From Polyangiaceae bacterium (GTDB lineage Bacteria; Myxococcota_A; Polyangia; Polyangiales; Polyangiaceae), in contig WQZB01000051.1 of assembly GCA_009780955.1 (NCBI GenBank), positions 1 through 35,874 on the forward strand: a stretch of DNA of 35,874 bases, written 5' to 3'. Position numbers and translations under genes: made by a program. Shown here piece after piece: positions 10,074 through 35,594 of this stretch; the first letter of the stretch is position 1; each line of letters starts with the position of its first letter. The notes under the pieces are model-generated. The model saw nothing but the letters and a program-made list of their open reading frames with translations. It had not been told where the DNA came from and did no database searches.

Positions 10074-10517
10074 ATGCGTCTCGTCGTTATGACGCAGCGG
10101 GTAGGGGACATCGTGGTTCCATTACCGCGCTACCAAACGGGTGGGGCAGCAGGCATGGACTTGCATGCGGCCCTGCGCGAGCCTTTGACCCTTGCGCCGT
10201 TTGGAAGAGCAAAAATTCCTACCGGGATTGCTTTTGCCATTCCACGAGGGTTCGAAGGCCAAGTGCGTCCGCGCTCGGGGCTTGCTGCAAAGCATGGCGT
10301 GACCGTGCTCAACGCACCGGGAACGATCGATTCTGACTACCGCGGAGAAGTCGCCGTTGTCCTGGTAAACCTCGGCGCCGAGCCGTGCACCATTGCACCC
10401 CTCGATCGGATTGCGCAGATTGTTTTTGCACGATACGAAACCGTCATTCTAGAAGAGACGCAATCGCTCAGCGACACGGAGAGAGGGGCGGGGGGTTATG
10501 GATCGACTGGATTGTAA
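10074..10517 (+). CDS. dut: dUTP diphosphatase (dUTPase)
   Basis: This enzyme hydrolyses dUTP to dUMP and pyrophosphate, keeping uracil out of DNA and feeding dTMP synthesis. The product is 147 residues. Trimeric dUTPase motifs appear in order: [31 protein letters not shown], and the C-terminal P-loop-like GGYGSTGL. I chose ATG 10074 because GGAGGAGA (10061-10068) is well placed before it; an upstream ATG at 10032 would add an unrelated 14-residue leader. Confidence 0.95.
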
Positions 10518-10526
10518 GAGCGTGTT

Positions 10527-12503: not shown

Positions 12504-12521
12504 GGCAACTCTCGCCAATCC

Positions 12522-14929: not shown

Positions 14930-15171
14930 AGACCAATCGCCTTTACACCATTTTTCCACCTATCAGGCTGCTCAAAAAAGGTTTCAGCTCAGCAGCCGAT
15001 CGCGCTCGTGCGCAGGCTTTGTGAGCAGCGTCGACCGACGGAAAATCCACGATGTTGGTTGCCTCCACATTGACGCACCTCGCCCGTAGGTCTAGGGATC
15101 ACGTCCAGGTTAACTGACGCCCACGATCGCATGGGCGCCTTCTTTTGAACCAGTAAGGAGAGTTCTCTTAT

Positions 15172-17529
15172 ATGAAACGTCTTTTCCTTTCCGTCCTGGG
15201 TGTGCCCGGCGTGCTTTGCATGCTCGGCGGCGCCGCGTACGCGGCGACCTCGGTTCCGTCCGGGGACTTGAACGGCAACGTGACCTGGACCGCCGCGGGC
15301 TCGCCATACAACCTCGACGGCGACGTCACCATTGTCGCCGGCTCGAGCCTCACTATCGAGGCCGGCGTCACCGTCCAGGTGAAGAAAGGCGACACGGCGA
15401 ACTCGGGCACGGACAAGACGAAGACCGAGCTCATCGTCAATGGCAGTCTCGAGACGCAGGGCACGAAGGAGAACCCCGTTGTCTTCACGTCGGCGGAGGC
15501 CGGTCCCGCGACCGATGATTGGTACGGCATCCGCGTGCTCTCTGGCGGTGCTATGGCTCTGCGCTGGACCAACTTCAGCTATGGATCGTATTGCATCGAT
15601 GCCTCCCCAGGAACCACCGGAAGCGTGAATGTGGTCGGTGGACGCGCCGAGAGTTGTGCAGTGGGGGTGAGTCTCCATGACGGTGCCCCTATTATCGATG
15701 GAATGACTGTCACCAAGTCAACGAGTTATGGGTTCAATGTTGATACAGCCAATGCCGTCCTGAATAACGTCATATCGACAGGTAATTCTTACGGCATCTA
15801 TATTAGCCAAACCACATCGGCGAGTTCGACCGTCAACATTGCCAATGCAACCGTCGCAAACAACACCACAGACGGAGTATACGGACAGAAATATAATGCA
15901 GCGACTTCGTCGCTGAGCATCAATATCGTCAATAGCATCATATCTAATAATAAGGCCTACGGAGTCGGTACGTTCACTACTGGTAATAACAACTCCAACG
16001 CGACATTTGCCGTTAGTTACTCAGATGTTTGGGGAAATACCACGTCGTCATATTATGGCTATAAGGTGAGCGCCGGCACCGGCACGATCAGCGTCAACCC
16101 CCTTTTCGTCGACGCGGCCAATGATTACCATCTCCAACCCAATTCACCCTGCATCGATACCGGCACCACGACCACGCTGACCACCGATGCCGACGGGAAC
16201 CCGCGCGTCGTCGACGGCGGGAAGGGCGCCAAGCCCGACATGGGGGCCTACGAATATCGGCCCTGCGAGGTGTCGTGCGGCGACAATGGCACCTGCAACG
16301 CGGCGACGAGAAGCTGCGCGTGCAACCCCGGGTTTGCTGGATCGGGGTGTCAATACAGTGACGCGGAGACTTGCAACAGTCATGGCGCGGCTCAGATGAA
16401 CGGAAACTGCGCGTGCAGCGATGGCTTTGCAGGAGCGAACTGCGAGCTCAGCGACGCGGTGACTTGCAATAGTCATGGCGCGGTTCAGATGAACGGAAGT
16501 TGCGCGTGCGCGAATGGCTTCGACGACGGAGCGAACTGCAGCCAATGTAAAGCCGACTACTATACCTACCCAACCTGCGCGATATTCTGCGAGGCATCGG
16601 CGACCTGCGGCGATCACGGAACCTGCAACAAAGCGGGAGGCTGTGCGTGCGCGAATGGCTTCGACGGAGCGAACTGCGAGTTTAGCGACGCGGTCACTTG
16701 CAACGATCATGGCACGACGCAGGCCGACGGAAGCTGCGTGTGCAGCGCCGGGTTCAACGGATCGGTGTGCCAATTTAGCGACGCGGTCACTTGCAATGGT
16801 CACGGCACGGCCCAGACCGACGGAAGCTGCGTGTGCAGCGCCGGGTTCGCAGGAGCGAGGTGCGAGTACAGCGACGCGGCGAACTGCAACAGTCGTGGTC
16901 AGGCCCAGGCCGACGGAAGCTGCAAATGCAGCCATGGCTTCGCAGGGCCGAAGTGCGAGTACAGCGACGCGACGACTTGTAACAGTCGTGGTCAGGCTCA
17001 GGCCAACGGAAGCTGCAAGTGCAGCGTTGGGTTCGCAGGAGTGAACTGCGAGTACAGCGATGCGGAGGCCTGCAACAGTCACGGGACGGTCCAGGCCAAC
17101 GGAAGCTGCTCTTGCAACACGGGCTTCAGCGGTGACAAATGCAGCGCGGGGACATGCAACGCATCGACGACGTGCAGCGGCCAAGGCACCTGCGACGCGG
17201 CAGGAGGCTGCTCTTGCAACACGGGCTTTAGCGGCGCAAGTTGCAATCAGTGTGTAGCTGGCTACTCCGGGTATCCTACCTGTGTACAAGACACCAACGC
17301 TGGGGAGATCGATGGCGGAGCTGACTCTGGAGGAACAGGGGTCGACTCTGGAATCGATGGCAATAAATCCGGTTCGCCTGACGATTCGGCAGGAGGCTCG
17401 GGCGGCGGCTGTAGCACATCGACCGGAAAAACCGGAAACTTGCCGTTCGCCGAACTTGGTCTTGCATCGCTGGTGCTAATCGTCCTTCGACGCCGTTCGG
17501 GACGGGCCGCTCACGCAAGAAAAGTTTGA
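15172..17529 (+). CDS. Secreted beta-helix plus EGF-repeat surface protein with MYXO-CTERM-like tail
   Basis: This is a 785-residue exported protein. A Sec signal peptide covers about 1-24 (LGGAAYAA cleavage region). Residues 25-365 form a right-handed parallel beta-helix, ending in the typical NSPCIDTG and KPDMGAYEY. About 366-705 are Cys-rich EGF-like modules; one 31-residue unit (SDAxTCNSHG, then GSCxCxxGFxGxxCE) recurs six or more times, in places nearly identical in DNA (16360-17120). After a Gly/Ser/Asp linker, the end GGGCSTSTGKTGNLPFAELG is followed by a hydrophobic stretch and RRRSGR. This matches the MYXO-CTERM plan, in which the Cys is thought to be processed for surface anchoring. 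The start has AAGGAGA nine bases upstream. The stretch from about 15690 to 16080, inside the beta-helix, is visibly richer in A and T. A role in adhesion or contact is only a guess. Confidence 0.85.
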   Translation: MKRLFLSVLGVPGVLCMLGGAAYAATSVPSGDLNGNVTWTAAGSPYNLDGDVTIVAGSSLTIEAGVTVQVKKGDTANSGTDKTKTELIVNGSLETQGTKENPVVFTSAEAGPATDDWYGIRVLSGGAMALRWTNFSYGSYCIDASPGTTGSVNVVGGRAESCAVGVSLHDGAPIIDGMTVTKSTSYGFNVDTANAVLNNVISTGNSYGIYISQTTSASSTVNIANATVANNTTDGVYGQKYNAATSSLSINIVNSIISNNKAYGVGTFTTGNNNSNATFAVSYSDVWGNTTSSYYGYKVSAGTGTISVNPLFVDAANDYHLQPNSPCIDTGTTTTLTTDADGNPRVVDGGKGAKPDMGAYEYRPCEVSCGDNGTCNAATRSCACNPGFAGSGCQYSDAETCNSHGAAQMNGNCACSDGFAGANCELSDAVTCNSHGAVQMNGSCACANGFDDGANCSQCKADYYTYPTCAIFCEASATCGDHGTCNKAGGCACANGFDGANCEFSDAVTCNDHGTTQADGSCVCSAGFNGSVCQFSDAVTCNGHGTAQTDGSCVCSAGFAGARCEYSDAANCNSRGQAQADGSCKCSHGFAGPKCEYSDATTCNSRGQAQANGSCKCSVGFAGVNCEYSDAEACNSHGTVQANGSCSCNTGFSGDKCSAGTCNASTTCSGQGTCDAAGGCSCNTGFSGASCNQCVAGYSGYPTCVQDTNAGEIDGGADSGGTGVDSGIDGNKSGSPDDSAGGSGGGCSTSTGKTGNLPFAELGLASLVLIVLRRRSGRAAHARKV

Positions 17530-17566
17530 CGTTTTCGCCAAACTCTCTCCAACGGGAAAGCGGCGA

Positions 17567-17602
17567 GTAGGGGCGCAGCATGCTGCGCCCCTACAGCTTT
17601 TT
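17567..17602 (+). terminator. Perfect 28-bp palindrome plus T-run, terminator of the EGF-repeat gene
   Basis: The arm GTAGGGGCGCAGCA (17567-17580) is followed directly by its exact complement (17581-17594), then AGCTTTTT. It lies 38 bases after the stop. The core TAGGGGCG...CGCCCCTA is shared with the palindrome at 23834, so this may be a mobile palindrome co-opted as a terminator. Confidence 0.75.
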
Positions 17603-17686
17603 CGACAGTACCGTACGCTCACGGCGCCGACGTACCATAATATCGGCTCGCCTCCGCCAAGAAGATAAGGCTAAAAAGATCACGAC

Positions 17687-18196
17687 ATGGTCGACAAGAA
17701 CCCGATCACTCCCGAAGGGGCCGCCCGGCTGCGCGATGAACTTTACAACCGCAAGACCGTGGAGCGGCCCGCAATTACGCAGCTCATCGCCGAAGCGCGT
17801 GCGCATGGTGATCTCAGCGAGAACGCCGAGTACCATGCGGCTCGCGAGCGCCAGGGGTTCAACGAGGCGCGCATCAAAGATCTCGAAGACAAGCTTGCGC
17901 GTGCCGAGGTGATCGACCCCACGAAAATCGTAGGCAGCAAGGTTGCTTTTGGTGCAACGGTAAAGCTTCTCAACGCCGACACCGACGAGGAAGTCAGCTA
18001 TCGCATTCTCGGCGCCGACGAAGCCGATATCAACGCCGGCAGCATTAGCATTACCGCGCCCATGGCGCGCTCGCTGCTCGGCAAAGAGATCGGCGACGAG
18101 GTAAAGGTCATTACCCCCGCCGGCGCGCGCGTTTACGAGATTCTCGATGTTCGTTACACGTTGGCCACGTCGATGAGCGGCGGCAAAAACGGTTGA
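17687..18196 (+). CDS. greA: Transcription elongation factor GreA
   Basis: GreA rescues backtracked RNA polymerase by stimulating transcript cleavage. The 169 residues are the normal size. The N-terminal coiled coil is at about 8-78 and carries the acidic tip in [20 protein letters not shown], the loop that reaches the polymerase active site. The FKBP-like C-terminal half is at about 85-158 ([26 protein letters not shown]). The 11-residue tail after YEILDVRY is lineage-specific. It is followed 30 bases later by a large inverted repeat and the sulfatase-fold gene on the same strand. Confidence 0.95.
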
Positions 18197-18220
18197 AGCA
18201 TTTCGGAGATCGGGCACTAG

Positions 18221-18297
18221 AAGAGCATGTTTGCCAGCCGTTGCGAGCGACGTAACGAAGGCATCGCGGCGCGCAGCAGGCTGGTAAACATGCTCTT
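18221..18297. repeat. 18-bp inverted repeat spanning the annotated 5' end of the sulfatase-fold gene
   Basis: AAGAGCATGTTTGCCAGC (18221-18238) and GCTGGTAAACATGCTCTT (18280-18297) are complementary at 17 of 18 positions, with 41 bases between. Each arm contains one of the two candidate ATG starts of the next gene. It could form a hairpin that ends greA transcription or that hides the start codon, or it could be a repeat element. There is no T-run. Confidence 0.55.
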
Positions 18298-21274
18298 AGA
18301 GCTGGTTGCTGACGTCGGCGGCGTGCTCGCCGTATGGGCAGGCCTGCTTTGGCTTGAAAGTACGATTCTCGCGCTCGGCTGGCGGCACGAGTTCGTTGGA
18401 TCGTGGGAGATCAGCCTTGCGCGTAGAACCGCCGGTCCGGTGGCGCTCGCGAGTCTCCTCCCAGCGGCCGTGCTGATCGCTACCGCGAGTCGGCTCGTAA
18501 AAAAACGCAAAGCCACGCAGCTTGCGGCAGTCGCGTTTGCCTTTGGCGCTATGGTTGGGTTCGGTGTTTCAACGGGCCGCCACATGGCAAACCCGCTTGT
18601 GCGCGCGCTCTTCGTGCTTGCTCTAGCAGGCTTGTCGTGCAGCGCCGTGTATGTGCTCATCAAGCGCTTGCCGCTCAATCGGCCGATCGTGCTCGCAGGG
18701 TTCGGCGTGCTCGTCACCGCGCTTGGGTGGCTCGCCGACAACTTCGTTTTGCCGCGCCTTTATCCGGCTTTCCATCATGCCCTGTTCGCCATCACGCTTG
18801 CGGCAAGCGCGTCGATTTGGTTCTTCGTACGCGGTAGCAAGCTCACGTGGCCCACGGCCGCCATTGGCGTCGGCGGCCTCGGCATAACTGGGCTCGCCAT
18901 TGTAACAGCTGGCAGCGGTGCCCGAAGCATTGCGGTCGACGACAACGCACGCCGCGTGCTCGTGGAGCATGCGCCGCTGCTTGGTCGTGCGGTTTTCGTC
19001 GCAAAAGCAATTGCGCCGCCACCACCCATGGACGACGGCGCCGCCACCACCGAAGACAGCGCCCACACAATCCAGGGCGCCGCGCGCACGCCGCGCACGC
19101 TCGACTGGACGGGCAAAGACATCGTTCTCATTTCGATCGACGCTTTGCGTGCCGACCACTTGTCGTCGTATGGCTATGCGCGAAAAACGAGCCCAAATAT
19201 CGATCGCCTGGCAGCTCGTGGCGTCCGCTTCACACACGCTTATTGCCCAACACCGCACACGTCGTATTCGATAACGTCAATGATGGCGGGAACCTACATG
19301 CGACCGCTGCTTACGCTGGGCGTGGGCGATGACTCCGAGATGTGGGCCGATATCCTTCGCCGCTATGGATACCGCACGGCGGCCTTCTACCCGCCGGCTG
19401 TTTTTTTTATCGACGCGCATCGCTTTACGACGATTCGCGACAGATCCCTTGGCTTCGAATACAAAAAAGAAGAATTCACCAAACCAGAACTTCGGCGGGC
19501 ACAAATTGCTGAGTATCTCGCCAACGCGAGCAGCGATCACGGCCCGAATCACGGCCTAAATCACGAAGGGCAGCCGCTTTTCTTATGGGTTCATCTTTTC
19601 GAGCCGCATGAGCCTTACGAAATGCACCCGGAGCATCCGTTTTCCGGTAGCTCCGGTAGCGATTCGCTCGACGCCTACGACAGCGAAATCGCTACGGCCG
19701 ATGCTTTCGTCGGCGAGGTCATCGACCTTGTGAACGCATACCGGCCCGGCGCAACCATCCTTGTCACAGCCGACCACGGAGAGGAATTCGGCGATCACGG
19801 CGGGCATTACCACGGCACGAGCGTCTACGAAGAGCAGGTACGCGTTCCGCTCGTGATCGCAGGGCAGGGCATTGCACCGCGCGTCGTCGATACGCCCGTG
19901 CAAACGATCGATCTTTTGCCGACCACGCTTGCAGCGCTCGATATCCCAATGCCAGCGCGCCTGCGCGGTCGCGATCTCGGCCCGCTCATCACGGGCCATG
20001 CTCCTGCCAACGACGAAGGCTTGGCGTTTGCTGAGACCGACGACTACACGCTCGTTGCACGCGGCACCGACAGACTGGTATGTGCGCGCAAGATCTCGGC
20101 GTGCACGCTCTTCGACGTCCAGCAGGATCCGGGCGAGACGCACGCCGTGCCGGACCGCCCCGAGCGCGTGCAAGAACTCCGGCGCATCACAGCCCGGATC
20201 GAGCGCGAAAGCGGCAAAGTCGAAGCCTCGGACATGCCGGAAGCGCTGCGACGAGGAATGCAAGGCGATCGCGATGCGGCCGAAGACGTCGCGCTCTTGT
20301 TCGACGATGCGCGCGTCGACATCCGACGCGCTGCAGCCGAATGCGCGTTCCGTCTGCGTGCACCCGAGATGGCGCCGCAGCTTCGGCGCGCGCTCGCGCA
20401 AGATGAAGACGACGAAGTGAAGAAGTGGAGTGCGCTTGCACTCATGAGACTCGGTCCCGAAGGCCTCCGCGACGAAGCAACCAAGGCAAAGATGCTCACA
20501 ACGACTTTGCTCGGAACAAGCACGCGCCTCCAGACAGCCGCGGCTCTTGCCCTTGCGGAACAAGGCGATCCGCGTGGGCAAGACGTGCTCGTCGCGCGTT
20601 GGGAATCGGCGTTCGTGCCAGGGGCGAAAGAGCACGGCGAGCTCGAGGAAGGCCGCGAGCTACTTGGTGCCTTCGCGAAGCTTCGCACACACTCGGCGGT
20701 TCTGCCGCTCACCCGCGCGCTCGACGACGTACGTTTGCGGCCCTACATCGTTGATGCGCTCGCGGACATCGGCGACACTCGTGCGAAAGAAGCTCTTGTC
20801 AGGGTGTTTTCAACGGAAAAATACGTGAACGTGCGGCCTCGCGAGGCCCGCGCGCTCGTCCGGCTTGGCGCGCGCGAAGAGCTCCGAGCACCGCTCGAGC
20901 GCTTTGCAGGCGCACCCGTGCCAATGCCTGAAGCCATCGCGTTCGCACGCGACGCTGGCTTGCTCGATCCTGCTCACGGTGGCTACGTGGGGCATGCGAG
21001 CACGGCACAAACTGCATCATCGGTGAGCGTGCGGCTTCGATTTTCGGCCGCGGGCCCAGCGCGCCTGCTCGTGCTCCTTGGCAGCGATGCAAGGGCAGGG
21101 GGTCTTGTGGTGTCCGTCGATGGGGAAGCCATGACGGCACAGCCGAAAGATGAAATTTGGATCGTCGAACTGCCAGGCGGAAAAGGACCTTTCGTCGACG
21201 TGCGTCTGGAACATCCTCGTGGCATCTTGGCCGCTTGGATTGTCCCCCGTGCGCTAGTAGAGTCCGCGCCGTGA
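18290..21274 (+). CDS. Membrane-anchored sulfatase-fold (alkaline phosphatase superfamily) hydrolase with HEAT-repeat tail
   Basis: From ATG 18290 there are 994 residues; an ATG at 18227 would add 21 residues coded inside an inverted repeat. Five or so membrane segments occupy about residues 1-235. The catalytic domain begins at VLISIDALRADHLSSYGY (metal-binding Asp) and includes LFLWVHLFEPHEPY and TADHGEEFGDHGGHYHG, which bind the second metal site. The nucleophile region reads CPTPHTSYSITSMMAG: the C/S-x-P-x-R formylglycine motif is absent, so a Thr or Ser may serve directly, as in phosphoglycerol or phosphoethanolamine transferases. HEAT-like repeats follow (AAECAFRLRAPEMAPQLRRA, then ALALMRLGPEG), then a beta-rich end. 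A substrate in the envelope is likely but unidentified. Its stop overlaps the next start (GTGA). Confidence 0.8.
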   Translation: MLLELVADVGGVLAVWAGLLWLESTILALGWRHEFVGSWEISLARRTAGPVALASLLPAAVLIATASRLVKKRKATQLAAVAFAFGAMVGFGVSTGRHMANPLVRALFVLALAGLSCSAVYVLIKRLPLNRPIVLAGFGVLVTALGWLADNFVLPRLYPAFHHALFAITLAASASIWFFVRGSKLTWPTAAIGVGGLGITGLAIVTAGSGARSIAVDDNARRVLVEHAPLLGRAVFVAKAIAPPPPMDDGAATTEDSAHTIQGAARTPRTLDWTGKDIVLISIDALRADHLSSYGYARKTSPNIDRLAARGVRFTHAYCPTPHTSYSITSMMAGTYMRPLLTLGVGDDSEMWADILRRYGYRTAAFYPPAVFFIDAHRFTTIRDRSLGFEYKKEEFTKPELRRAQIAEYLANASSDHGPNHGLNHEGQPLFLWVHLFEPHEPYEMHPEHPFSGSSGSDSLDAYDSEIATADAFVGEVIDLVNAYRPGATILVTADHGEEFGDHGGHYHGTSVYEEQVRVPLVIAGQGIAPRVVDTPVQTIDLLPTTLAALDIPMPARLRGRDLGPLITGHAPANDEGLAFAETDDYTLVARGTDRLVCARKISACTLFDVQQDPGETHAVPDRPERVQELRRITARIERESGKVEASDMPEALRRGMQGDRDAAEDVALLFDDARVDIRRAAAECAFRLRAPEMAPQLRRALAQDEDDEVKKWSALALMRLGPEGLRDEATKAKMLTTTLLGTSTRLQTAAALALAEQGDPRGQDVLVARWESAFVPGAKEHGELEEGRELLGAFAKLRTHSAVLPLTRALDDVRLRPYIVDALADIGDTRAKEALVRVFSTEKYVNVRPREARALVRLGAREELRAPLERFAGAPVPMPEAIAFARDAGLLDPAHGGYVGHASTAQTASSVSVRLRFSAAGPARLLVLLGSDARAGGLVVSVDGEAMTAQPKDEIWIVELPGGKGPFVDVRLEHPRGILAAWIVPRALVESAP

Positions 21275-22467: not shown

Positions 22468-23814
22468 TTGAGCCGCACGCCAAGCCGCACGCGAAAGAGT
22501 CTTGTAACGCCTTTCGCGCCTTTCACGTTCGTCGTGTTTGCCACGTTCGCATCAGCCTGCGGTGCGGACGTTTTTGCTGGCGATCGGACGAATCCCGCGG
22601 TGCCTTTGTGGTACGCGCGGCCGAACGGCGCCATGAGTGTTTTTGTGCGTCGCACGCTAACGGCTCCATCGCGCACTGTCGGCGAAGACTGGGAGCGCGG
22701 CCGCCCCGAAATCGACAGCGCGCGCAACCGCGTGTTCGTTGGGTCCTCCGACCATGGGCTTTATGCGTTGCGCGCAGGCGATGGCAGCACAATCTGGCGC
22801 TTCGAAACACTCGCCGTCGTGCAAAGCGAGCCACTTTACGATTCGGAAATGGACTACGTCTATTTTGGGTCGAACGATGGCGCGCTTTATTGTGTGCGCG
22901 CGCAAACCGGTAAGCTCGTTTATCGGTTCGACACAGGCGCCGAGGTTTCGCGAAAGCCGGTGCGCGCAGGCGAGAATCTATTTTTCTCGAATGCCGCTGA
23001 CTTTCTTTTTTCGATCGACCGTCGCACGGGCAAGCAAAACTGGCAGGTGCATCGAACGCCGGCATTGGGCATGGAAATCAGCGGCCACGCTGGACCAGCG
23101 TACGATCCTGCGAGCAACCTCGTGTTCATGGCCTACTCCGACGGGCACGTGATTGCATACAGTGGCGCCGACGGCTCGGAGAAATGGAGCCCGGTCGATC
23201 TTTCTGCTGACGCCGAGCAGGCTGGCGGTGAAGCGCCACGCTACCTTGATGTCGACACGACGCCGGTGCTCGACGACAGCCCGCAAGGACGCGTCGTTTA
23301 CGTCGCAAGCTACGCCGCGGGCGTGTATGCGCTCGATGCAACGACCGGCTCGCGAGCGTGGGCGAACGACAAGGTCATTGGAGTCACCGATCTGCTCCTG
23401 TGGAAAGAGCGCGCACACATGCCGAATCCCAATGGCCCTGACCGCGGCGGGCCCATGGTGCCCGAACGCAAGTTGATTGTCGTCTCGAGTGCAGCCGTCG
23501 GGCTCACGGCGCTCGACACCGTAACAGGCCGCGTTGTTTGGCAGAACAAGGTGCCCGAAGGCGGAATCACGGCGCCCGCGGCTCTAGCCGGTGCGCTGTT
23601 TGTGGGTACGAGTCGCTACGGCGCGTTTCTTTTGTCGCCGCGCAATGGCAAAGTCATCGACGGAATCGATTTTGGTACGGGCTTTTCGCAAACCCCTGCG
23701 GCGTACGGGAATCGTGCCTACGTGATGACGAATGCAGGAACATTCCTCGGCGTCTCCGTTGCACCGCCGCTTCCTCTTGCCCACGCGATGTACAGCGCAA
23801 CTCAGTCGCGCTGA
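22468..23814 (+). CDS. PQQ-repeat beta-propeller lipoprotein, BamB-like
   Basis: This is 448 residues from a TTG. The leader ends FVVFATFASAC, a lipobox with Cys31. The mature part has repeated propeller blades: NRVFVGSSDHGLYALRAGDG, DYVYFGSNDGALYCVRAQTG, ADFLFSIDRRTGKQNW, GRVVYVASYAAGVYALDATT and GAFLLSPRNGK. BamB is the accessory scaffold of the Bam complex. The position right after a yfgM-like gene supports that role, and bamD lies elsewhere in the window, but other PQQ-propeller lipoproteins look alike. A palindrome lies 20 bases after the stop. Confidence 0.75.
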   Translation: MSRTPSRTRKSLVTPFAPFTFVVFATFASACGADVFAGDRTNPAVPLWYARPNGAMSVFVRRTLTAPSRTVGEDWERGRPEIDSARNRVFVGSSDHGLYALRAGDGSTIWRFETLAVVQSEPLYDSEMDYVYFGSNDGALYCVRAQTGKLVYRFDTGAEVSRKPVRAGENLFFSNAADFLFSIDRRTGKQNWQVHRTPALGMEISGHAGPAYDPASNLVFMAYSDGHVIAYSGADGSEKWSPVDLSADAEQAGGEAPRYLDVDTTPVLDDSPQGRVVYVASYAAGVYALDATTGSRAWANDKVIGVTDLLLWKERAHMPNPNGPDRGGPMVPERKLIVVSSAAVGLTALDTVTGRVVWQNKVPEGGITAPAALAGALFVGTSRYGAFLLSPRNGKVIDGIDFGTGFSQTPAAYGNRAYVMTNAGTFLGVSVAPPLPLAHAMYSATQSR

Positions 23815-25762: not shown

Positions 25763-26104
25763 GCCTCGAGCCGCCGCGTGCCGCGTGCCTGGCACGCTCA
25801 GTCGAGACGCAGAACCACGACGCCGGGTGGAGGTATAGTGCCCGGCACATGCGCGTCGCTGAGTCGGTGCTGCTGGTTCGCGGCACAATGGCGGGATGGA
25901 GATCATGTTTCGTTCCGTTCCTGACTTTGCAGTGCGACGGTCTATCGAATGGGTTTGCAACGGGTATTCCCACACACCAAGACGAACTCCGCAGCGCGAA
26001 TCGTGGCTTGCTCGCTCTTGCCGCGCCGCAAGCTGCTACGCGCCAGCCTCGGTGCCCCGCATGTGCATGCTGCGGCAAATCACGTGCGAATGCGAAAACA
26101 CGCG
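25763..26104. other. Non-coding or decayed stretch of about 340 bases
   Basis: Several frames are open here on both strands, but none has a convincing start, composition or motif. The bases just before the tandem array read AATCACGTGCGAATGCGAAAA. I see no gene. Confidence 0.4.
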
Positions 26105-26326
26105 GAGTCTGCCGATCTCACGAAGGCGTTACGCGCCGGAGTCTGCCGATCTCACGAAGGCATTACGCGCCGGAATCTGCCGATCTCACGAAGGCATTAC
26201 GCGCCGAGTCTGCCGATCTCACGAAGGCGTTACGCGCCGAGTCTGCCGATCCTCACGAAGGCGTTACGCGCCGAGTCTGCCGATCTCACGAAGGCGTTAC
26301 GCGCCGAGTCTGCCGATCTCACGAAG
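26105..26326. repeat. Tandem array, seven units of 33-34 bp
   Basis: Units start at 26105, 26139, 26173, 26206, 26239, 26273 and 26306; the last is cut after 21 bases. Each begins GAGTCTGCCGATCTCACGAA and goes on to GGCGTTACGCGCC. Differences are limited to G/A changes at two sites, one extra C in unit 5 and a 33/34-base length alternation. There are no unique spacers, so it is not a CRISPR. The plus strand has no stops in any frame, so long ORFs across it are artefacts; the length alternation would shift any reading frame. Confidence 0.9.
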
Positions 26327-26374
26327 ACATTATGTCAACTAACCCGAAAGCCTTCGGGTTAGTTGACATAATGT
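26327..26374. repeat. Perfect 22-bp-arm palindrome at the end of the tandem array
   Basis: Arms at 26327-26348 and 26353-26374 are exact complements with a 4-base loop (AGCC). The left arm starts ACATTATGTCAACTAACC. The right arm supplies the XerC-like half of the dif candidate (26361-26371), so the left arm is an inverted second copy of that half. It is AT-rich against a GC-rich background. Confidence 0.85.
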
Positions 26375-26388
26375 ATCTTATGCGAAAT
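26361..26388 (+). other. dif: Candidate dif site (XerC/XerD chromosome-dimer resolution)
   Basis: The layout is XerC-like arm AGTTGACATAA, centre TGTATC, XerD-like arm TTATGCGAAAT. Against the E. coli dif from memory, 7 of 11, 5 of 6 and 9 of 11 positions match (21 of 28), including the CATAA and TTATG cores that face the crossover. Chromosomal dif sites are single-copy, intergenic and near the terminus; this one is intergenic and unusually AT-rich for its surroundings. A plasmid- or phage-type Xer site is the alternative. Confidence 0.6.
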
Positions 26389-26434: not shown

Positions 26435-27448
26435 CTACGATAAACCCAGGAGCTCGTGCTTGGGCGCGCGCGTCGTCAGAAGCCTCATCGCATCGAGTAT
26501 CGAGCGGCGCTCGTAAAGCACATGGTAAACTTGCTCGGTGATTGGCACATCGACGCTGAACTTCTGCGCAAGCGCCCATGCAGCTTTCGTCGTGCCATAT
26601 CCTTCGGCAACGGTTCGCTGCGAGCCAAGGAAGCCTGCTGGGTCAACCCCCTCGGCGAGCTTCAATCCGAGAGCGCGGTTTCGCGAAAGCGGACCCGTTG
26701 CCGTCAAGATGAGATCGCCCACGCCGGAAAGTCCCATGAACGTGAGCGGATCGCCGCCGAGCGCAACGCCGAGACGAGCCATTTCCGACAAACCTCGTGT
26801 GATGAGCGCCGCGCGCGCGTTGGTTCCGAGCCCCAAGCCGTCGCACGCGCCCGTGGCAATCGCAAGCACGTTCTTCAGCGCACCGCCAACCTCGACACCA
26901 ACCGGATCGCGGTTTGTGTAAACGCGGAATATTGGCGAATGCAAAGCGTTCGCAATTTTTGCGGCCACAACGTCTGTTTGCGACGCGACAACAACATCGG
27001 CAGGAAGGCCCGCAGCCACCTCACGCGCAAAGCTTGGCCCGGAAAGCACGGCGAGATCCGCGCGCCTGTGGCCCGGCATCGCCTCGGCCACGACGTCTCT
27101 CATGAGCATGAAGGTGTCGTTCTCGATGCCCTTGGTGGCAATGACAATGCTTGCGGCAGACGGCACGTCGCGGGCCACGCTCGCTGCGACTTGACGGAGA
27201 TACGCCGACGGCGGCACGAAGATAACAATGTTGGCGCCGTGCAAAACTTCGCCTGGATCGATGGACGCGCGAATCGTTTTTGGGAGCGTTATGCCCTGGA
27301 GAAAAAGCGAATTTTCGTGATGCTGTTCAATGTCGTAAAGCACTTCGGGCTCTCGCACCCAAAGGTGGACTTCGTGATTGCATCGCGCTGCCTGCGCCGC
27401 AAGCGCGGTACCCCATGCTCCCGCCCCAAGGACCGCAATCTTGCTCAC
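26435..27448 (-). CDS. gpsA: NAD(P)-dependent glycerol-3-phosphate dehydrogenase
   Basis: GpsA reduces dihydroxyacetone phosphate to sn-glycerol 3-phosphate for phospholipid synthesis. The 337 residues are the normal length. It starts at a GTG with KIAVLGAGAWGTALAAQ, the Rossmann GxGxxG. Later blocks are FVPPSAYLRQV, ATKGIEND, LSGPSFAREVAAGLPADVVV and GGALKNVLAIATGACDGLGL (catalytic Lys), then TRGLSEMARLG and GLSGVGDLILTATG. It is complete. The upstream gap contains three 9-base GCCGCGTCA repeats (about 27517-27545) and a degenerate solo arm of the dispersed repeat. Confidence 0.96.
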   Translation of the reverse strand: MSKIAVLGAGAWGTALAAQAARCNHEVHLWVREPEVLYDIEQHHENSLFLQGITLPKTIRASIDPGEVLHGANIVIFVPPSAYLRQVAASVARDVPSAASIVIATKGIENDTFMLMRDVVAEAMPGHRRADLAVLSGPSFAREVAAGLPADVVVASQTDVVAAKIANALHSPIFRVYTNRDPVGVEVGGALKNVLAIATGACDGLGLGTNARAALITRGLSEMARLGVALGGDPLTFMGLSGVGDLILTATGPLSRNRALGLKLAEGVDPAGFLGSQRTVAEGYGTTKAAWALAQKFSVDVPITEQVYHVLYERRSILDAMRLLTTRAPKHELLGLS

Positions 27449-27569: not shown

Positions 27570-30113
27570 TTATGACGCGGGCGTGGGCAGTGCGCCCGTG
27601 ACGAGCGTCGATGGCGTGTCGCTCGTCGTGCACCAAAGCTGGTAGGCTGCACGCGTTGCACCAACGTAGAGTGCTTGCCTCGCTTGTGGGGTTTCGGGGT
27701 AGCTCGATCGGGTGGTTTCGAGCAGGATCACTTCGTCGAACTCGAGGCCTTTGGTTTGGCGAATATCGGTAATGTCGAAGCCGCGCTCCCAGGTGAAATC
27801 CTGATGACGAACGCGACGCACGTTCGGCACTTCGGCGCGCACGAGACCTTCGTAATAAACGTCGGCCTGCTGGGCAAAGCGCGCGAGCAGCGCAACGTTC
27901 GCCTCGGGCTCGTCGGCCGCAAGCTCACGAAGCGCGTCGGCCAAGAACGCAACGCACTCGCCCGCCGATGAAAACGAGAAAAGCTCGACGGGCGGACCTT
28001 GGCGGTTGGCGATTGGCTCGGCGTCGTGCGCGAGCGGGCCGAGCACGGCTTGTGCGAACGAGGTGATTTCAGCGGTCGACCGATAGCTAACCTTGAGCGG
28101 TTCGATCACCCCTGCCCCGCCTGGCACGCCGAGCTCTTTGAGGGTTGCGTCCCAATCGAATGCAGCATGCTCGTCGTCCTCTTCACGCATGCGCTGCGCA
28201 ACGTCGCCTGCGAGTGTGATCGAAAGCTGACTCGGATCGACCGCGTCGTCTTTCATGCCGGAGGCAACGTCGAGAAGCACCTTCAGCTCGATTGGGCTTG
28301 TGTCTTGCACCTCGTCGACGAAAAGATGAGGCACGCTCAGCGCGACACCGTCGGCGTCAACGATGGGGCCGCGCAAAAGCTGGAACAGCCGCAGGATGAG
28401 CGCACGATCTTCGAAGTCGATGGTCGGCGTTGCACCGTCGCGTTCGCCTTCGGCGCGGATGCGCGCCTGCCGAACGCACCATTCGTGCACCTGATCGAGT
28501 TGCCCCTTGCCGAAATCATTTCGAAAGTGCTTGTTGAGTCTTAATCGGTTCGTTGTCACGTCATCCCATGCGGCAAGCACCGCGCGCGACTCGCTTCGCA
28601 TCTGCTGGCAAAGTGCAAGGGCGGCGCTGCGCGTGACTTCGGGTAGCGATCCAGCAGCAATGCCAGAAAGCTCCTTTTTGCCAGTGACCCACTGCAAAAG
28701 GTGCGTAACACGGCGGTCTGGTGCGCCGCGCGCTGCCCGCCACGCTAGAACGACCTTGTTGCCAAAGGGCCACCTAGCCATCGCACGTTCCACCATCGTG
28801 TGGAGGCGGGCCATGATTTCGCTCGCGACTTCGCCCATCGCGAGCAGCATGGCCGGGTGGTTTTTCACCCGCGAGACGAGCGGCGGCGTTTCCTCGCTCA
28901 CCGCGCTTGGCAGCTTCGGGAAGATGTCTGCGAGAACGCGCAAAGACCAGCGTGAGAAGGTCATCACGGGCACGCCGTCGACCCCGAGCTCTGGCAAGAC
29001 ACGGCTTGTGTAGTGTACAAGTGCTTCGTTCGGTACGATGACGAGCATCTTGTGTGGACGGAAAGTGTTCGGGCTGGTTGCGTGCAAGAACGCGACGCGA
29101 TGCAAACCTACGGTGGTCTTGCCGCTTCCGGCACTGCCTTGGATGGCAACCAGGCCAGCACCCGGGCGCGTGATGAGATCGTACTGCTCCTTGTCGAGCA
29201 TTGCGGCGATCGCGGGCAGTAGCCTGTCGGCCGAGGTGGACGTGCCGCTGCTGCTGCGCGCGTTCAACGTGCCTTGGCTTGCAGCAGAAGCAGCATTCTC
29301 GTGCCCAGTCTCGTGCTCAGGCGCATGCCTCGAGCCCGGAAGACGAAGTCGCGCAACATGAGTCTCTGCGCGACGCCATCGCCCATTGGGATCACGCACG
29401 AAAATGCCTTGCGGTGAGGTCACTTTGCGTAGTTCTCCGTTGACGATGGCTACTGTTCGGCGCGCGACGACTGTGCCCTCGACGAGGTGATCGCCGAGTG
29501 TTTCTTCGTACGAGTCGTCTTCGCGGTAGCGATAAAAGATGCGACTGACGGGCGCGTTCCGCCAATCCACGATACGCACGCCACAGGCTGGATCGACGTA
29601 CTGGCGCGAGCCAACTAGGATATCGCGCCGCCGCTCTTTCGATCCCGCACGACAGCGTTCGATCACGGTTTCTTGGAGACGCAAATGGGCGAAGTATGGT
29701 GCTTTGCGATCGACACTGCCCACCATGCCTTTGCCGCGATGCGCGCGCAGGGCGCCAAGGTGGTGCATTTGTTCGAGCAGCGCTGGCAGATCTTCCGGCT
29801 TCGCGACTGCCGCAGCGTCGCGCAGCTCGAGGAGCCGCCGATCGTCATCGGCAAGCGCCTGGGCAAGGCCTGACCCAAACGCCAGCTGGCTTGACCTGCT
29901 GCTTGGCCCATTTGTCCCTTCGCTCCCTGCCTGGCTATCGGGACCAGTGGCTGGACCAATGGCGCCGAGCACGATTTCGAGCAGGCGCAGCTCTTCACCG
30001 ACGATGCGGCGGGCTTGCTCGTCCGACTCGAGGCCGACAACGCAGCATTCGTTGGTTGTGTTGCCTTTGACGTTTTCAGATGCGTCACCCACGGGAACAT
30101 GCCGGCATAGCAC
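27570..30113 (-). CDS. UvrD/Rep-type SF1 helicase, HelD-like
   Basis: This is about 847 residues from a GTG at 30113; the exact start is uncertain. The N-terminal region (about 28-320) includes an early helical hairpin (ESDEQARRIVGEELRLLEIV) and DWRNAPVSRIFYRYREDD, typical of HelD/HelR factors, which pull stalled RNA polymerase off DNA using ATP. Walker A is GSAGSGKT at 326-333, Walker B is in HLFVDEVQDTSPIE, and late motifs are FDITDIRQTKGLEFDEVILL and ALYVGATRAAYQLW. Full-length SF1 motifs are present. The start lies 27 bases from the divergent thioredoxin gene. Confidence 0.85.
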   Translation of the reverse strand: MLCRHVPVGDASENVKGNTTNECCVVGLESDEQARRIVGEELRLLEIVLGAIGPATGPDSQAGSEGTNGPSSRSSQLAFGSGLAQALADDDRRLLELRDAAAVAKPEDLPALLEQMHHLGALRAHRGKGMVGSVDRKAPYFAHLRLQETVIERCRAGSKERRRDILVGSRQYVDPACGVRIVDWRNAPVSRIFYRYREDDSYEETLGDHLVEGTVVARRTVAIVNGELRKVTSPQGIFVRDPNGRWRRAETHVARLRLPGSRHAPEHETGHENAASAASQGTLNARSSSGTSTSADRLLPAIAAMLDKEQYDLITRPGAGLVAIQGSAGSGKTTVGLHRVAFLHATSPNTFRPHKMLVIVPNEALVHYTSRVLPELGVDGVPVMTFSRWSLRVLADIFPKLPSAVSEETPPLVSRVKNHPAMLLAMGEVASEIMARLHTMVERAMARWPFGNKVVLAWRAARGAPDRRVTHLLQWVTGKKELSGIAAGSLPEVTRSAALALCQQMRSESRAVLAAWDDVTTNRLRLNKHFRNDFGKGQLDQVHEWCVRQARIRAEGERDGATPTIDFEDRALILRLFQLLRGPIVDADGVALSVPHLFVDEVQDTSPIELKVLLDVASGMKDDAVDPSQLSITLAGDVAQRMREEDDEHAAFDWDATLKELGVPGGAGVIEPLKVSYRSTAEITSFAQAVLGPLAHDAEPIANRQGPPVELFSFSSAGECVAFLADALRELAADEPEANVALLARFAQQADVYYEGLVRAEVPNVRRVRHQDFTWERGFDITDIRQTKGLEFDEVILLETTRSSYPETPQARQALYVGATRAAYQLWCTTSDTPSTLVTGALPTPAS

Positions 30114-30139
30114 CAGCCCGCGATGTAGACTTGGGTTTT

Positions 30140-30724
30140 ATGCAGCCTGCAATTCTGGCGGCGTTTGCTGCGTTCTTTTCCCTCTTCACAGCGGCTTGCG
30201 CCAAAGATGCGAACTCGGAGTCGGCGAAGAGCCCAGGCAGCCCGGGCAGCCCAGGTAACTACGCCGCGGTGAACGCGAAAGCGTCGAGCTCGGTCGAGGG
30301 CGGCATCCAGGAAGGCGACAAAGCTCCCAGTTTCTCGATCGACTCGGTGAACGGGCAGGGCCAAGTCGCCATCACTCCTGGCAAGGTTACCCTCGTCGAT
30401 CTCTGGGCAACGTGGTGTTACCCGTGCAAGCAAAACTTTCCAAAGTACCAAGAGATATATGCAAAATACAAGGAAAATGGGCTTGAGATTGCGGCCGTTT
30501 CCGTCGACGACGAAAAAGACAGCGTGATTGCCTTTGCCGCGGCAAGCGGCGCAACGTTTCCTATTGGCTGGGACGAAGGGCGCAAAATCGAAAACCAATT
30601 CCAGCCGGCCGGCGTACCCACCTTGTATGTCATCGGGAAAGACGGAACGGTGAAGCACATTCACCGTGGCGAAAGCGCTGGCAACGAGATTCAACTCGAT
30701 AAGGAAATCGAAAACCTGCTGTGA
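30140..30724 (+). CDS. TlpA/ResA-type thioredoxin-fold lipoprotein
   Basis: This is 194 residues from ATG 30140. The leader MQPAILAAFAAFFSLFTAAC gives a lipobox at Cys20. A Ser/Pro/Gly linker (PGSPGSPG) follows. The thioredoxin domain at about 55-190 has the redox motif WCYPC (Cys93 and Cys96) and the cis-Pro loop AGVPTLYVIG. Such proteins reduce disulphides in the periplasm, often for cytochrome c maturation, but no such genes are adjacent. The stop is followed after 11 bases by repeat copy 3. An in-frame start at 30080 would remove the signal peptide from the N-terminus. Confidence 0.88.
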   Translation: MQPAILAAFAAFFSLFTAACAKDANSESAKSPGSPGSPGNYAAVNAKASSSVEGGIQEGDKAPSFSIDSVNGQGQVAITPGKVTLVDLWATWCYPCKQNFPKYQEIYAKYKENGLEIAAVSVDDEKDSVIAFAAASGATFPIGWDEGRKIENQFQPAGVPTLYVIGKDGTVKHIHRGESAGNEIQLDKEIENLL

Positions 30725-30735
30725 CGAGGGATGGA

Positions 30736-30856
30736 ACCGCTTTCAAGTTGACGCGAGTTCGAGGCGGCGGCGAGGAGCGGACCGGAACAGCCTGCTTCGG
30801 CTTTGAGGACCGCACCGCAGCCGCCAACGAAGAAATCGCGTCAAATCGAAAGCGGT
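30736..30856. repeat. MITE/REP-like inverted-repeat element, copy 3
   Basis: This is 121 bp with ends ACCGCTTTC and its complement; the inner arms carry TTGACGCGA. It is colinear with copy 2 without the central insert. It exactly fills the gap between the convergent thioredoxin gene and groEL, ending one base before the groEL stop (30858-30860). Confidence 0.85.
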
Positions 30857-30857
30857 C

Positions 30858-32570
<1,713 letters not shown>

Positions 32571-32861
32571 TCAATGCGTGAACACGGCGAGAATGTCGTC
32601 CTCGCGGAGGAGAACGAGCTCTTCACCATCAACCTTGACTTCCGTGCCCGAGTACTTGCCGAACAGAACCTTGTCGCCGGCTTTCACGTCGAGCGGTACG
32701 ACCTTGCCATTCTTCCGAGCAGCGCCGGGGCCTGCCGCGACGACAACGCCTTCGAGTGGCTTTTCCTTGGCAGTGTCGGGGATAATGATGCCTCCCTTGG
32801 TTTTTTGCTCTTCTTGTGTGCGTTTGACGACGAGCCTGTCGGCGAGAGGGCGAATCTTCAT
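32571..32861 (-). CDS. groES: Co-chaperonin GroES (10 kDa)
   Basis: This is 96 residues from ATG 32861 ([14 protein letters not shown]); the open frame continues upstream to 32897, but the family start is at 32861. The mobile loop is [19 protein letters not shown]. The end [17 protein letters not shown] is standard. It caps GroEL rings. It is the first gene of the groES-groEL operon, with CIRCE 68 bases upstream of the start. Confidence 0.97.
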
Positions 32862-32928
32862 GAGTTTTTCCGTGGTTTCCGTGGTTAAAGCCGGCAAACG
32901 TGAATGATTCAGGCTGAGCCGGCGGTTG

Positions 32929-32955
32929 TTAGCACTCGAGCTGGATGAGTGCCAG
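32929..32955. promoter_or_regulatory. CIRCE operator (HrcA binding site) of the groES-groEL operon
   Basis: TTAGCACTC (32929-32937), nine bases, then GAGTGCCAG (32947-32955). The left arm is the exact consensus; the right arm differs at two outer positions (consensus GAGTGCTAA). Position upstream of groES is as expected for heat-shock repression by HrcA. Confidence 0.85.
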
Positions 32956-33203
32956 CGCTAGCGGGCGCAAACCTATGTCTCGCTGGCGCGGCGTCAAGGA
33001 CTGCGATGCCGGATCAAGGGTCGATTCTGTGAGATCGCACCAGGCGGTCGATCGCGAGCCAGGCCGTCACAAAGGGTGTCAAGATGAGGCGTTCCGCCCT
33101 TGTGGAGCTGACAAAAACATAATAATTTTCATGGCTTGATTGCTGCTCCACCACCTTGCCTGAGGGCTTCGCCCGCGCTGTTAGCGGACGAAGTGCAGAG
33201 CTT

Positions 33204-34691
33204 ATGGCGGCAAAAAAGCCCAAGGTTGGGATTGGCTTAAGCAATGGTTCAAACGGCGTTCTCGTCACTCCACCTCCGCCACCAATAGAGGCGGGTGAGA
33301 TCGTTGCCGGCAAGTACCGCGTCGAGCACCTCATCAAGGTGAGTCCCTCGACTTTCGTACTCGCGGCTCGGCATGTTCAGCTTCGATCGCCTGTCATCAT
33401 CAAGTTATTTGCAGCATACACAGACGAACAAGGCGTTGCGCTCACCCAGCGGATCGAACTCGCGCGTGCGGCGGCCGTGCTCCGCGGTGCACACGTTGCG
33501 CCGATCGTCGAGGTCGGAACAACGGCAGACGGCATGCCGTACATCGCGACCGAACGGTTCGAAGGTCCCACCCTCGAGGACGAACTCAACGCACGACAAT
33601 GCTTGCCGTTCCCCGAAGCCGCGCGATGGATTGTCGAGGCGTGTGACGGTGTCGCGGAAGCGCACGCGCGAGGTATCGTTCACGGTGATCTCCGACCAAC
33701 GAACCTCCTGCTTGCCGAGCCCGGACAAGGGACTGTTTGGAGCGCCAGCGCCAGTGTCAAGTCAGACGCACGTGCAGACAACGATTCCGCAGATCGTCGG
33801 ATCTTAAAAGTTCTCGACTTTGGGGTGGCGAGCCCCATCGATACAGCGAGTGTGTCGGACGACAGCGCATCGGTTTTCTGCGGCTCGCCTGCGTACCTTG
33901 CGCCCGAGCAGATCCGTGAGCCCGAACGAGTGAGCCCGCGAACGGACATCTGGGCTCTCGGCGTGATTTTACACGAGCTCGTGGCTGGCACCCTGCCCTT
34001 CCCAGCCGAGGCACCGTCCGAAGTACTCTTGGCTGTCATTTTCGACGCCGCTCCGCTCTTGACCGATGCGCCATACGAGCTTGCACGCGTAGTCAACAAG
34101 TGCCTGTCCAAAGATCCTGCGAGCCGACCTGCCGATGTCGGCGAGCTCGCCCGAGCCCTTGCACCGTTCGTGGGCGAGGATGGCGCGCAGATGGCAGATC
34201 ACGTTTGCAAAGTGCTTTCGGAGCGCGATGAAACGTCTGGCAGGCGAAAGCGTCGGCGTTCAGACCGAAAAAAAGAGGTGCCTCTACCAGCGATCATGCC
34301 GGCCATGCCGGTGCTTGACCGTACGATGGGTGGCTCGATTGGGCCGTCACTCCGCGCACGCGCACTTCATTACCGTCGCATTCGTCGGACCACGGGCGCG
34401 GCGTTCGCAGCGGTCGTTGCGGTCGGCATCTTCGCACTCCGAACCACTCTCCACGTGACCCCACGCGATCCGCAGCCAGAGTTCGATCTCCCGCAGCTTG
34501 AACCACTGCCGGTCACGGCGTTCGTCCCAACGACTGCGCCCGACGACCACGCGCACTCAAATACTGTCAGTGCTGTCGAAACGAAGTCTCGAGCAACGCC
34601 AACATCCCATTCCGTGGCACAGCGGTCCGTCTCCACTCCTCGGTTCCTTTCGCAGCAGCCTGCCAGCAGAGCACCGAAACAGACTCCTTGA
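33204..34691 (+). CDS. Ser/Thr protein kinase-like membrane protein with a degenerate nucleotide loop
   Basis: This is 495 residues from ATG 33204. The kinase fold is at about 37-325. Present are the VAIK-type Lys67 (VIIKLF), catalytic-loop HGDLRPTN with Asp162 and Asn167 (family HRDxKxxN), DFG at 205-207, and APE at 233-235 with DIWALGVILHELVAGTLPF after it. Missing is the glycine-rich loop: GKYRVEHLIKVSPSTFVLAA has no GxGxxG. The Arg of HRD is Gly and the Lys is Arg, features of atypical or weak kinases. A basic stretch (RRKRRRSDRKK), one membrane span at about 392-410 and a Pro/Ser/Thr tail of about 80 residues follow. Myxobacteria have many such kinases. The partner is unknown. Confidence 0.8.
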   Translation: MAAKKPKVGIGLSNGSNGVLVTPPPPPIEAGEIVAGKYRVEHLIKVSPSTFVLAARHVQLRSPVIIKLFAAYTDEQGVALTQRIELARAAAVLRGAHVAPIVEVGTTADGMPYIATERFEGPTLEDELNARQCLPFPEAARWIVEACDGVAEAHARGIVHGDLRPTNLLLAEPGQGTVWSASASVKSDARADNDSADRRILKVLDFGVASPIDTASVSDDSASVFCGSPAYLAPEQIREPERVSPRTDIWALGVILHELVAGTLPFPAEAPSEVLLAVIFDAAPLLTDAPYELARVVNKCLSKDPASRPADVGELARALAPFVGEDGAQMADHVCKVLSERDETSGRRKRRRSDRKKEVPLPAIMPAMPVLDRTMGGSIGPSLRARALHYRRIRRTTGAAFAAVVAVGIFALRTTLHVTPRDPQPEFDLPQLEPLPVTAFVPTTAPDDHAHSNTVSAVETKSRATPTSHSVAQRSVSTPRFLSQQPASRAPKQTP

Positions 34692-34697
34692 AGAGAG

Positions 34698-34714
34698 ATC
34701 GCGAGGTTCGCGAT
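34698..34714 (+). terminator. Short hairpin after the kinase gene
   Basis: ATCGCGA and TCGCGAT form a perfect 7-base stem with loop GGT, nine bases after the kinase stop. Only a weak T-rich tract follows (CTTCTT), so this is a modest terminator at best. Confidence 0.45.
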
Positions 34715-34722
34715 TGACCTTC

Positions 34723-34750
34723 TTGACAACGAATACGGCGACGGTAAGGT
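34723..34750 (+). promoter_or_regulatory. Promoter of the tRNA-Gln/tRNA-Glu pair
   Basis: A perfect TTGACA (34723-34728) and TAAGGT (34745-34750) are 16 bases apart. The start would be near 34757, 65 bases before tRNA-Gln. A perfect -35 is rare in this GC-rich window. Confidence 0.6.
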
Positions 34751-34821
34751 GCGCGAACCCTTTGGCACCACCGTAGGCCTAATAGGCCCACGGTTGCGCA
34801 CCAGCCAGCGCGTTTGCTTGG

Positions 34822-34892
34822 TGGGGGATCGTCTAATGGCAGGACGACGGATTCTGGCTCCGTCTATCTAGGTTCGAATCCTAGTCCCCCAG
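34822..34892 (+). tRNA. tRNA-Gln (CTG)
   Basis: The acceptor is TGGGGGA/TCCCCCA, D stem GTC/GAC, anticodon stem ACGGA/TCCGT around loop TTCTGGC (anticodon CTG), and T arm CTAGG-TTCGAAT-CCTAG. The discriminator is G. The 3' CCA is not encoded. A T-run at 34953-34960 lies between this gene and tRNA-Glu. Confidence 0.95.
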
Positions 34893-34966
34893 CTCCCCCA
34901 GTCTTGTTTGTCCTCGTTTGCTCCGTTCACGGTCCGTTTCGTTTCACGCAGGTTTTTTTTGGATTA

Positions 34967-35041
34967 GGCCCCATCGTCTAGCGGCTAGGACATCGGCCTC
35001 TCACGCCGGTAACGCGGGTTCAATTCCCGCTGGGGTCGCCA
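34967..35041 (+). tRNA. tRNA-Glu (CTC)
   Basis: The acceptor is GGCCCCA/TGGGGTC with one G-U pair, D stem GTC/GAC, anticodon loop CTCTCAC (anticodon CTC), and T arm GCGGG-TTCAATT-CCCGC. The discriminator is G, and CCA is encoded (35039-35041), unlike the neighbouring tRNA-Gln. A decayed integrase lies just downstream, so its 3' end is a candidate attachment site. Confidence 0.95.
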
Positions 35042-35118
35042 ATTGACCGTGAAAATTCTGGCTGATTCTGCGCAGTTGGCCGGTTTGCTTTTGTATTCCT
35101 AAGCACTTGGCCCAATGC

Positions 35119-35149
35119 TTGGCCCGATTGTCGGGCCAATAGTGTTTTT
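35119..35149 (+). terminator. Rho-independent terminator downstream of tRNA-Glu
   Basis: TTGGCCCGA, loop TTG, then TCGGGCCAA give a perfect 9-base stem, with TTTTT at 35145-35149. It lies 78 bases after tRNA-Glu. The minus-strand integrase frame reads through it, which shows that the recognisable integrase ends before this point. Confidence 0.75.
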
Positions 35150-35175
35150 GGTAATGGCGGATGTGGCTGGCCAAA

Positions 35176-35594
35176 CTTCGCCGAGAGCCCCGGCTTGCGG
35201 CCCTTGTGCGGCTTTCCCTCCCCTTCCCGCTCCTCGTAGAAGGCCGAGCGTGCGCGGATCGCCTCGTCGAGCCGCTGCACGACGCGGCGAAGATCCGCGC
35301 TCGTCACGCCCGTCATCGGCAAGCGGCCGATCAACGGCTCCACCCAGATCCGGAACCGTGCACGGCGATCGTCGATGGACGCTTGCGGCTTGCCCCGGTT
35401 TTTCCGTCCGACAGCGCCCTTCGCCGCCGCGTCGTAGTAGCGGGCGTACCATTCATTGGCTTACCGACTCGACGCCAGGCGGCGCCTCGCGATTTGCGTG
35501 CGCCGTCGCCGAGGCGGATGCGACCGCGGAAGTAGGTCGTTCCGTCGGCGCGCTTGCGCAACTCGGCACTGCCGGTACGAGATGGGCCGCTCAT
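35176..35594 (-). pseudogene. Truncated tyrosine integrase, N-terminal part only, with internal deletion
   Basis: From ATG 35594 the frame gives MSGPSRTGSAELRKRADGTT and YFRGRIRLGDGARKSR, a typical arm-type DNA-binding start. At about 35460 the frame changes, and the other frame resumes with EWYARYYDAAAKG, then RFRIWVEPLIGRLPMTGVTS and ADLRRVVQRLDEAIRAR, the SAM-like core-binding domain. Recognisable text ends at GRKPGLSAK (35176); the frame then drifts to a stop at 35020 through the tRNA terminator. The catalytic domain with the R-H-R-Y residues is absent. It points at tRNA-Glu, a classic integration target. Its ATG overlaps the stop of the small gene upstream (ATGA). Confidence 0.75.

Follow-up and report, generated by a model that had tools for sequence, protein, structure and literature searches.

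A very likely chromosomal dif site abutted by an inverted half-copy of itself in a Polyangiaceae bacterium

Bacterial chromosomes normally carry a dif site, where joined sister chromosomes are separated by XerC and XerD. Is an AT-rich intergenic block in a Polyangiaceae bacterium the dif of its chromosome, and if so, how did a perfect palindrome come to run into it? We addressed this question within a window of 35,874 nucleotides, i.e., positions 1-35,874 of contig WQZB01000051.1 (assembly GCA_009780955.1; Table 1). The original prediction described a 28-base block at 26361-26388 that lies in an AT-rich island and matches E. coli dif at 21 bases. Coordinates and count were both reproduced: the plus-strand 28-mer is AGTTGACATAATGTATCTTATGCGAAAT, i.e., AGTTGACATAA/TGTATC/TTATGCGAAAT, and agrees with E. 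coli dif at 21/28 positions in the orientation first proposed and at 20/28 on the opposite strand. GC content is 0.39 at 26340-26400 vs 0.60 for the window, as expected of an AT-rich island. The runner-up place in the window scored 16 against E. coli dif, and the best score among 30 mononucleotide shuffles of the window was 19. Genome-wide, this likeness alone is not decisive, since a uniform-base model predicts ~0.3 chance matches of 21/28 for a genome of 4.2 Mb.

The block has the layout of a dif site, with two inverted 11-bp half-sites around a 6-bp centre. Because the CGCATAA/CGCAGAA and TTATGTNAACT halves match the XerC arm and the XerD arm of E. coli, respectively, the XerC-centre-XerD order is read on the minus strand. 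The naming of the arms in the original prediction was thus reversed: as assigned from sequence, the predicted XerC arm is the right-hand one in the window and the predicted XerD arm the left-hand one.

Table 1. Coordinates of dif, its flanking repeats, neighbour genes and polarity motifs in the window.
Feature	Coordinates	Strand	Remarks
KOPS-like GGGNAGGG toward dif	8834, 10099, 16219, 19862, 21093 (span 8834..21100)	+	
BamB/YfgL-like PQQ-repeat protein	22468..23814	+	conserved dif neighbour, transcribed toward dif
Tandem array, 33-34-bp unit, 6.8 copies	26101..26326	+	abuts hairpin
Perfect inverted repeat	26327..26374	.	22-bp arms 26327-26348 and 26353-26374; 4-nt loop
Inverted dif half-copy	26327..26340	+	ACA (centre) + TTATGTCAACT (XerD arm); no recognisable XerC arm
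Very likely dif site	26361..26388	-	minus-strand reading: XerC arm ATTTCGCATAA, centre GATACA, XerD arm TTATGTCAACT
Predicted XerD-binding half-site TTATGTCAACT	26361..26371	-	TTATGTNAACT in nearly all of 136 loci
6-bp central region GATACA	26372..26377	-	sits between arms
Predicted XerC-binding half-site ATTTCGCATAA	26378..26388	-	E. coli XerC-arm CGCATAA; assigned by sequence
GpsA (glycerol-3-phosphate dehydrogenase)	26435..27448	-	XerC-side neighbour, transcribed toward dif
HelD-like RNA polymerase recycling helicase	27570-30113		beside gpsA; in conserved terminus-side block
KOPS-like GGGNAGGG toward dif	28110, 33991, 33996, 35216, 35221 (span 28110..35228)	-	

Copy number and conservation were evaluated in the genome itself and across the order. 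In the 4.2-Mb genome (112 contigs, 98.69% complete), the core 22-mer occurs once at ≤3 mismatches in 22, the single-copy status for which the original prediction had proposed a check. A better dif elsewhere, or many copies of this one, would have spoken against it; the genome scan returned neither, and a looser dif pattern yielded no rival candidate of comparable quality. At the same tolerance, the core was detected in 29 of 38 genomes (own included), in 28 of them as a single copy. For the comparison with related Polyangia that had also been suggested, we used a refined pattern, TTNACATAATNNATCTTMTGCG with 1 mismatch allowed: 123 of 183 genomes of the order were positive, 116 with exactly one copy. 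The same search gave no match in 60/183 genomes, some of which are incomplete, while others among them probably have diverged dif sites. When 136 distinct dif loci were aligned, conservation was high within the 28 bases and at background level outside, with abrupt edges, and the site in the window equalled the consensus at 27/28 bases. Within this alignment, the XerC-arm CGCATAA is either invariant or CGCAGAA in relatives, and most of the variable inner columns sit in the 6-bp centre. The dif core has a few matches in other phyla, the exact 23-mer has none in viral contigs, and the literal dif sequence has none in the literature.

The window was also predicted to hold the replication terminus, and here the polarity of GGGNAGGG, the E. 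coli KOPS, i.e., the FtsK-orienting motif, proved informative. Its strand switches exactly at dif, with 10/11 motifs in agreement (5:1 on the XerC side, 0:5 on the XerD side) and a lone wrong-way motif on the + strand at 30353, which supports the terminus reading. Pooled over 12 genomes (own window plus 11 others), 137 of 147 motifs point to dif (XerC side, 63:6; XerD side, 4:74). An unbiased scan for octamer polarity ranked GGGCAGGG first, GGGGAGGG second, and GGGAAGGG fourth, i.e., 3/4 forms of the GGGNAGGG motif fall within the four most polarised octamers. GC skew, of which a cumulative plot had been recommended, is weak in this group and noisy, whereas replichore polarity by KOPS was clear and switched at dif; KOPS polarity was used instead of skew because the latter was too noisy in the 20-kb samples of one relative, G035, whose polarity switches between the two stretches abutting dif. 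In ten relatives' assemblies with one main chromosome contig, dif and dnaA are separated by 34-50% of the circle. The location of dif at the terminus is thus indicated both by KOPS in 12 genomes and by the dnaA distance in these ten relatives.

Both recombinases and an FtsK with a gamma domain are encoded in the genome. The XerD gene (346 bits) and FtsK-gamma (E 7.6e-29) score above their cut-offs, while the second recombinase has XerC as its best family (E 7.6e-94) at 314 bits, 21 bits below the curated cut-off of 335. How FtsK and XerCD act at dif is known from earlier work (reviewed in PMC5357621). In this genome, each 11-bp arm would be bound by its recombinase, XerC or XerD. FtsK would load on the converging GGGNAGGG motifs and reach the terminus, its gamma domain would activate XerD, and two dif copies in a chromosome dimer would recombine to yield two monomers. 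Judged by its conserved parts, 26361-26388 would have this role in dimer resolution. Overall, with a single copy that is kept in relatives, no better candidate, and a polarity switch at the site, we put the probability that 26361-26388 serves this Polyangiales bacterium as its chromosomal dif at about 0.96.

Next, we considered the genes around dif. A BamB-like PQQ gene faces dif in 67 of the 68 loci with a match, on the XerC side in 54 and on the XerD side in 13, one of which is the window; these counts are lower bounds, as many loci comprise only ~500 bases per side. In two genomes of the same genus (G003, G006), the order is Sulf-TPR-PQQ [C-dif-D] GpsA-UvrD-GroEL, "UvrD" being the HelD-like helicase, and in a third (G010) it is lip1 [C-dif-D] GpsA, while the window reads PQQ-lip1 [D-dif-C] GpsA. 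The neighbours are the same and the arm order is opposite, and therefore dif has been reversed in place in the window. A second within-genus reversal separates G159 (L119) from G158 (L233). The stretch from the BamB-like gene to dif holds two adjacent, similar-looking lipoprotein-like genes, 23900-24643 and 24844-25590; neither has an NCBIfam or PHROGs family, and a relative of one of them adjoins dif in G010.

The inverted repeat that overlaps dif was missed by the original prediction. It folds as DNA with -24.8 kcal/mol (z -9.1), matches no RNA family in Rfam, and its right arm consists of the XerD half-site, 3 centre bases, and 8 flank bases. The half-copy at 26327-26340 is oriented as dif is in same-genus relatives. 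The neighbouring tandem array was found nowhere else in the genome, and we rejected it as a dispersed repeat, since it occurs only at 26101-26326. Its unit ends in GGC[AG]TTACG, the last copy entering the dif half-copy as GACATTATG, and it may derive from a decayed old dif. "Local debris" that the terminus had been invoked to explain comes down to this array and the palindromic dif half-copy, without general decay.

Half-copies similar to that of the window lie beside dif in at least five other genomes. In a scan of 80 bases outside each of the 136 dif sites at ≤1 mismatch, inverted XerD-arm copies were detected at 5 loci, compared to 0.03 expected in shuffles, along with one inverted XerC-arm copy and no direct arm copies; detection needed a whole arm, so that shorter copies would escape. 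Long stems are present in the window and at L045, L086, and L128, at L104 (spotted by eye on account of a one-base insertion), and on the XerC side at L062, while L067 has a weaker half-copy match without a clear stem. In the window, L045, L104, L128, and L062, the stem ends within the six-base centre, a common end point that, with few cases, is suggestive only. Hairpin loci with a named source are metagenome assemblies, and an assembly artefact is possible; a like error at the same 28 bases in several unrelated projects is unlikely.

As the simplest account of this local history, we tentatively propose, at somewhat below even odds, that dif underwent an inverted duplication, after which the XerC arm of the older copy was lost, and that the newer, reversed copy is the one now working. 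Under this model, a palindromic second dif copy would have arisen on the XerD side, the older copy would persist as the half-copy 26327-26340, and the newer one would be reversed relative to the flanking genes. Where the new copy was kept, dif would be reversed with respect to its neighbours, as in the window and L104; where the old copy was kept, dif would be unreversed, as in L045 and L086, which have PQQ on the XerC side, and apparently in L128, in whose genome PQQ lies on the XerC side of a second dif-bearing contig, L270. In the window, the half-copy has the ancestral orientation and is found toward PQQ/lip1, matching what the duplication would predict, although an independent flip followed by a XerD-side hairpin would give the same picture. 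PQQ is on the XerD side at 13 loci, of which 2 carry a hairpin (own and L104); for the other 11, in which none was found, hairpin decay would therefore have to be common. Three hairpin loci are unflipped. A link between hairpin and flip as a rule was rejected on the strength of the 2/13. More generally, it is conceivable, though not the more probable outcome, that Polyangiales dif sites repeatedly undergo small palindromic inverted duplications with the stem ending in the centre, and that arm loss can then reverse dif.

Two other origins of the hairpin were weighed, both of which we consider unlikely. The first is that it represents the scar, or left junction, of a Xer-exploiting integrative element (IMEX, CTXphi-like): in single-stranded form, the two inverted dif-like sites of such phages pair into a hairpin, and the dif produced by integration would be accompanied by an inverted XerD arm. 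A folded two-site attP has been described for CTXphi-type phages (PMC5357621), and the stem end in the 6-bp centre of five loci coincides with the place of Xer strand exchange. A scar of this kind would adjoin phage genes and have a second flanking junction, but we found neither: seven window reading frames near the site had no PHROGs match at E ≤ 0.001, three proteins from two relatives gave one weak match of unknown function, the genome has no second dif-like junction at ≤3 mismatches in 22, and the neighbours of the hairpin are ordinary conserved chromosomal genes. We thus rejected a phage or IMEX scar. A transcription terminator that chanced to grow into the XerD arm, given similarly low odds, would account for the GC-rich tip of the stem, for a scan that classes the hairpin as terminator-like on the + strand, and for its position at a gene 3' end in L104 and L128 too. 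However, the tail TATCTTATGC is part of dif and not a genuine T-run, the gene closest to dif on the hairpin side (24844-25590) is transcribed away from it, as is the closest one in L045, and a terminator would not need to duplicate the XerD arm and some centre bases perfectly.

As to the identity of the site, it is very improbable that we are dealing with a pdif-type site, carried by a plasmid or other element, in place of the chromosomal dif. One relative (G130) does have arrays of many dif-like sites, but where a pdif would be one of several dif-like sites bordering small gene modules, this genome has a single site, at the KOPS switch and amid conserved GpsA, HelD-like helicase, and GroEL, and a plasmid-type site was excluded by copy number and genomic context. 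That the match arose by chance in an AT-rich intergenic stretch, to which the ~0.3 matches expected at this genome size lend some room, has a negligible probability given order-wide conservation limited to 28 bases, one copy per genome, and the KOPS switch at the site.

Dif-like sites of other kinds were observed in a few relatives. G130, of the same family, has 67 of them, 66 besides its own dif in L176, with arrays on contigs C49, C51, C141, C149, C158, C164, and C81 (L167-L175). Most read TTAACATAATGTCTCTTATGCG, with a centre differing from dif, and those examined lie within a ~95-bp conserved element with a stem-loop, spaced mostly ~0.6-4 kb apart in both orientations, with genes for a FAD monooxygenase, alpha/beta hydrolases, FG-GAP, C39-like peptidase, and unknowns in between. 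By analogy, this looks like a large Xer module array comparable with Acinetobacter pdif modules. In G114, a second dif-like site, TTTACATAAGCTATCTTATGCG, occurs five times with shared flanks, mostly at or near contig ends (C32, C118, C511, C554, C659; L177-L179, L181-L182), and probably belongs to a repeated element that makes use of it. In G143 (C52/C138; L183, L184) and G164 (C274/C309; L272, L273), the same dif lies near the ends of two contigs per assembly, with identical overlapping ends in C52/C138, as if the place of dif were variable in the population.

The dif described here is a site of a well-known type; what is unusual is its local history as we infer it. It resembles E. coli dif in its 28 bp, 11-6-11 layout, 20-21/28 identical bases, and single copy at the terminus, and the two systems share converging GGGNAGGG motifs and encoded XerC, XerD, and FtsK-gamma. 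Unlike in E. coli, the Polyangiales consensus is ATTTCGCATAAGATACATTATGTAAACT, the centre is GATACA/GATGCA vs TGTATA, and the dif of the window is abutted by an inverted half-copy of its XerD arm. Kono et al. 2011 (PMC3025954) predicted dif sites near the terminus across bacterial phyla, and our site is of the same class; the main text names neither Sorangium nor Myxococcus, and some myxobacterial dif sites may already be in the supplementary tables. An inverted terminus duplication including dif is also known from Lactobacillus delbrueckii ssp. bulgaricus, where fold-back priming at a broken end was proposed as the source of a repeat viewed as being eliminated (PMC5345009); there, the repeat spans 47.5 kb with two opposite dif sites, vs 22 bp, one working dif, and a half-copy here. 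The attP hairpin of CTXphi likewise has inverted dif-like half-sites able to form a stem, but as a ~150-bp fold on phage single-stranded DNA (PMC5357621), compared to a 48-bp palindrome without adjoining phage genes.

For the organism, dif fixes the replication terminus of its chromosome, and for Polyangiales as a whole, an order with weak GC skew, a sharp consensus with the core CGCAKAAGATRYATTATGTNAACT serves to locate dif. If the proposed duplications are real, half-copies such as 26327-26340 would be fossils left by breakage followed by fold-back repair, with the breakage occurring at the Xer cutting site or at the point where sister termini break. The inverted half-copies, which recur, and the in-place reversals of dif would then constitute natural traces of terminus breakage and repair, processes that, to our knowledge, have otherwise been studied mainly in E. 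coli mutants.
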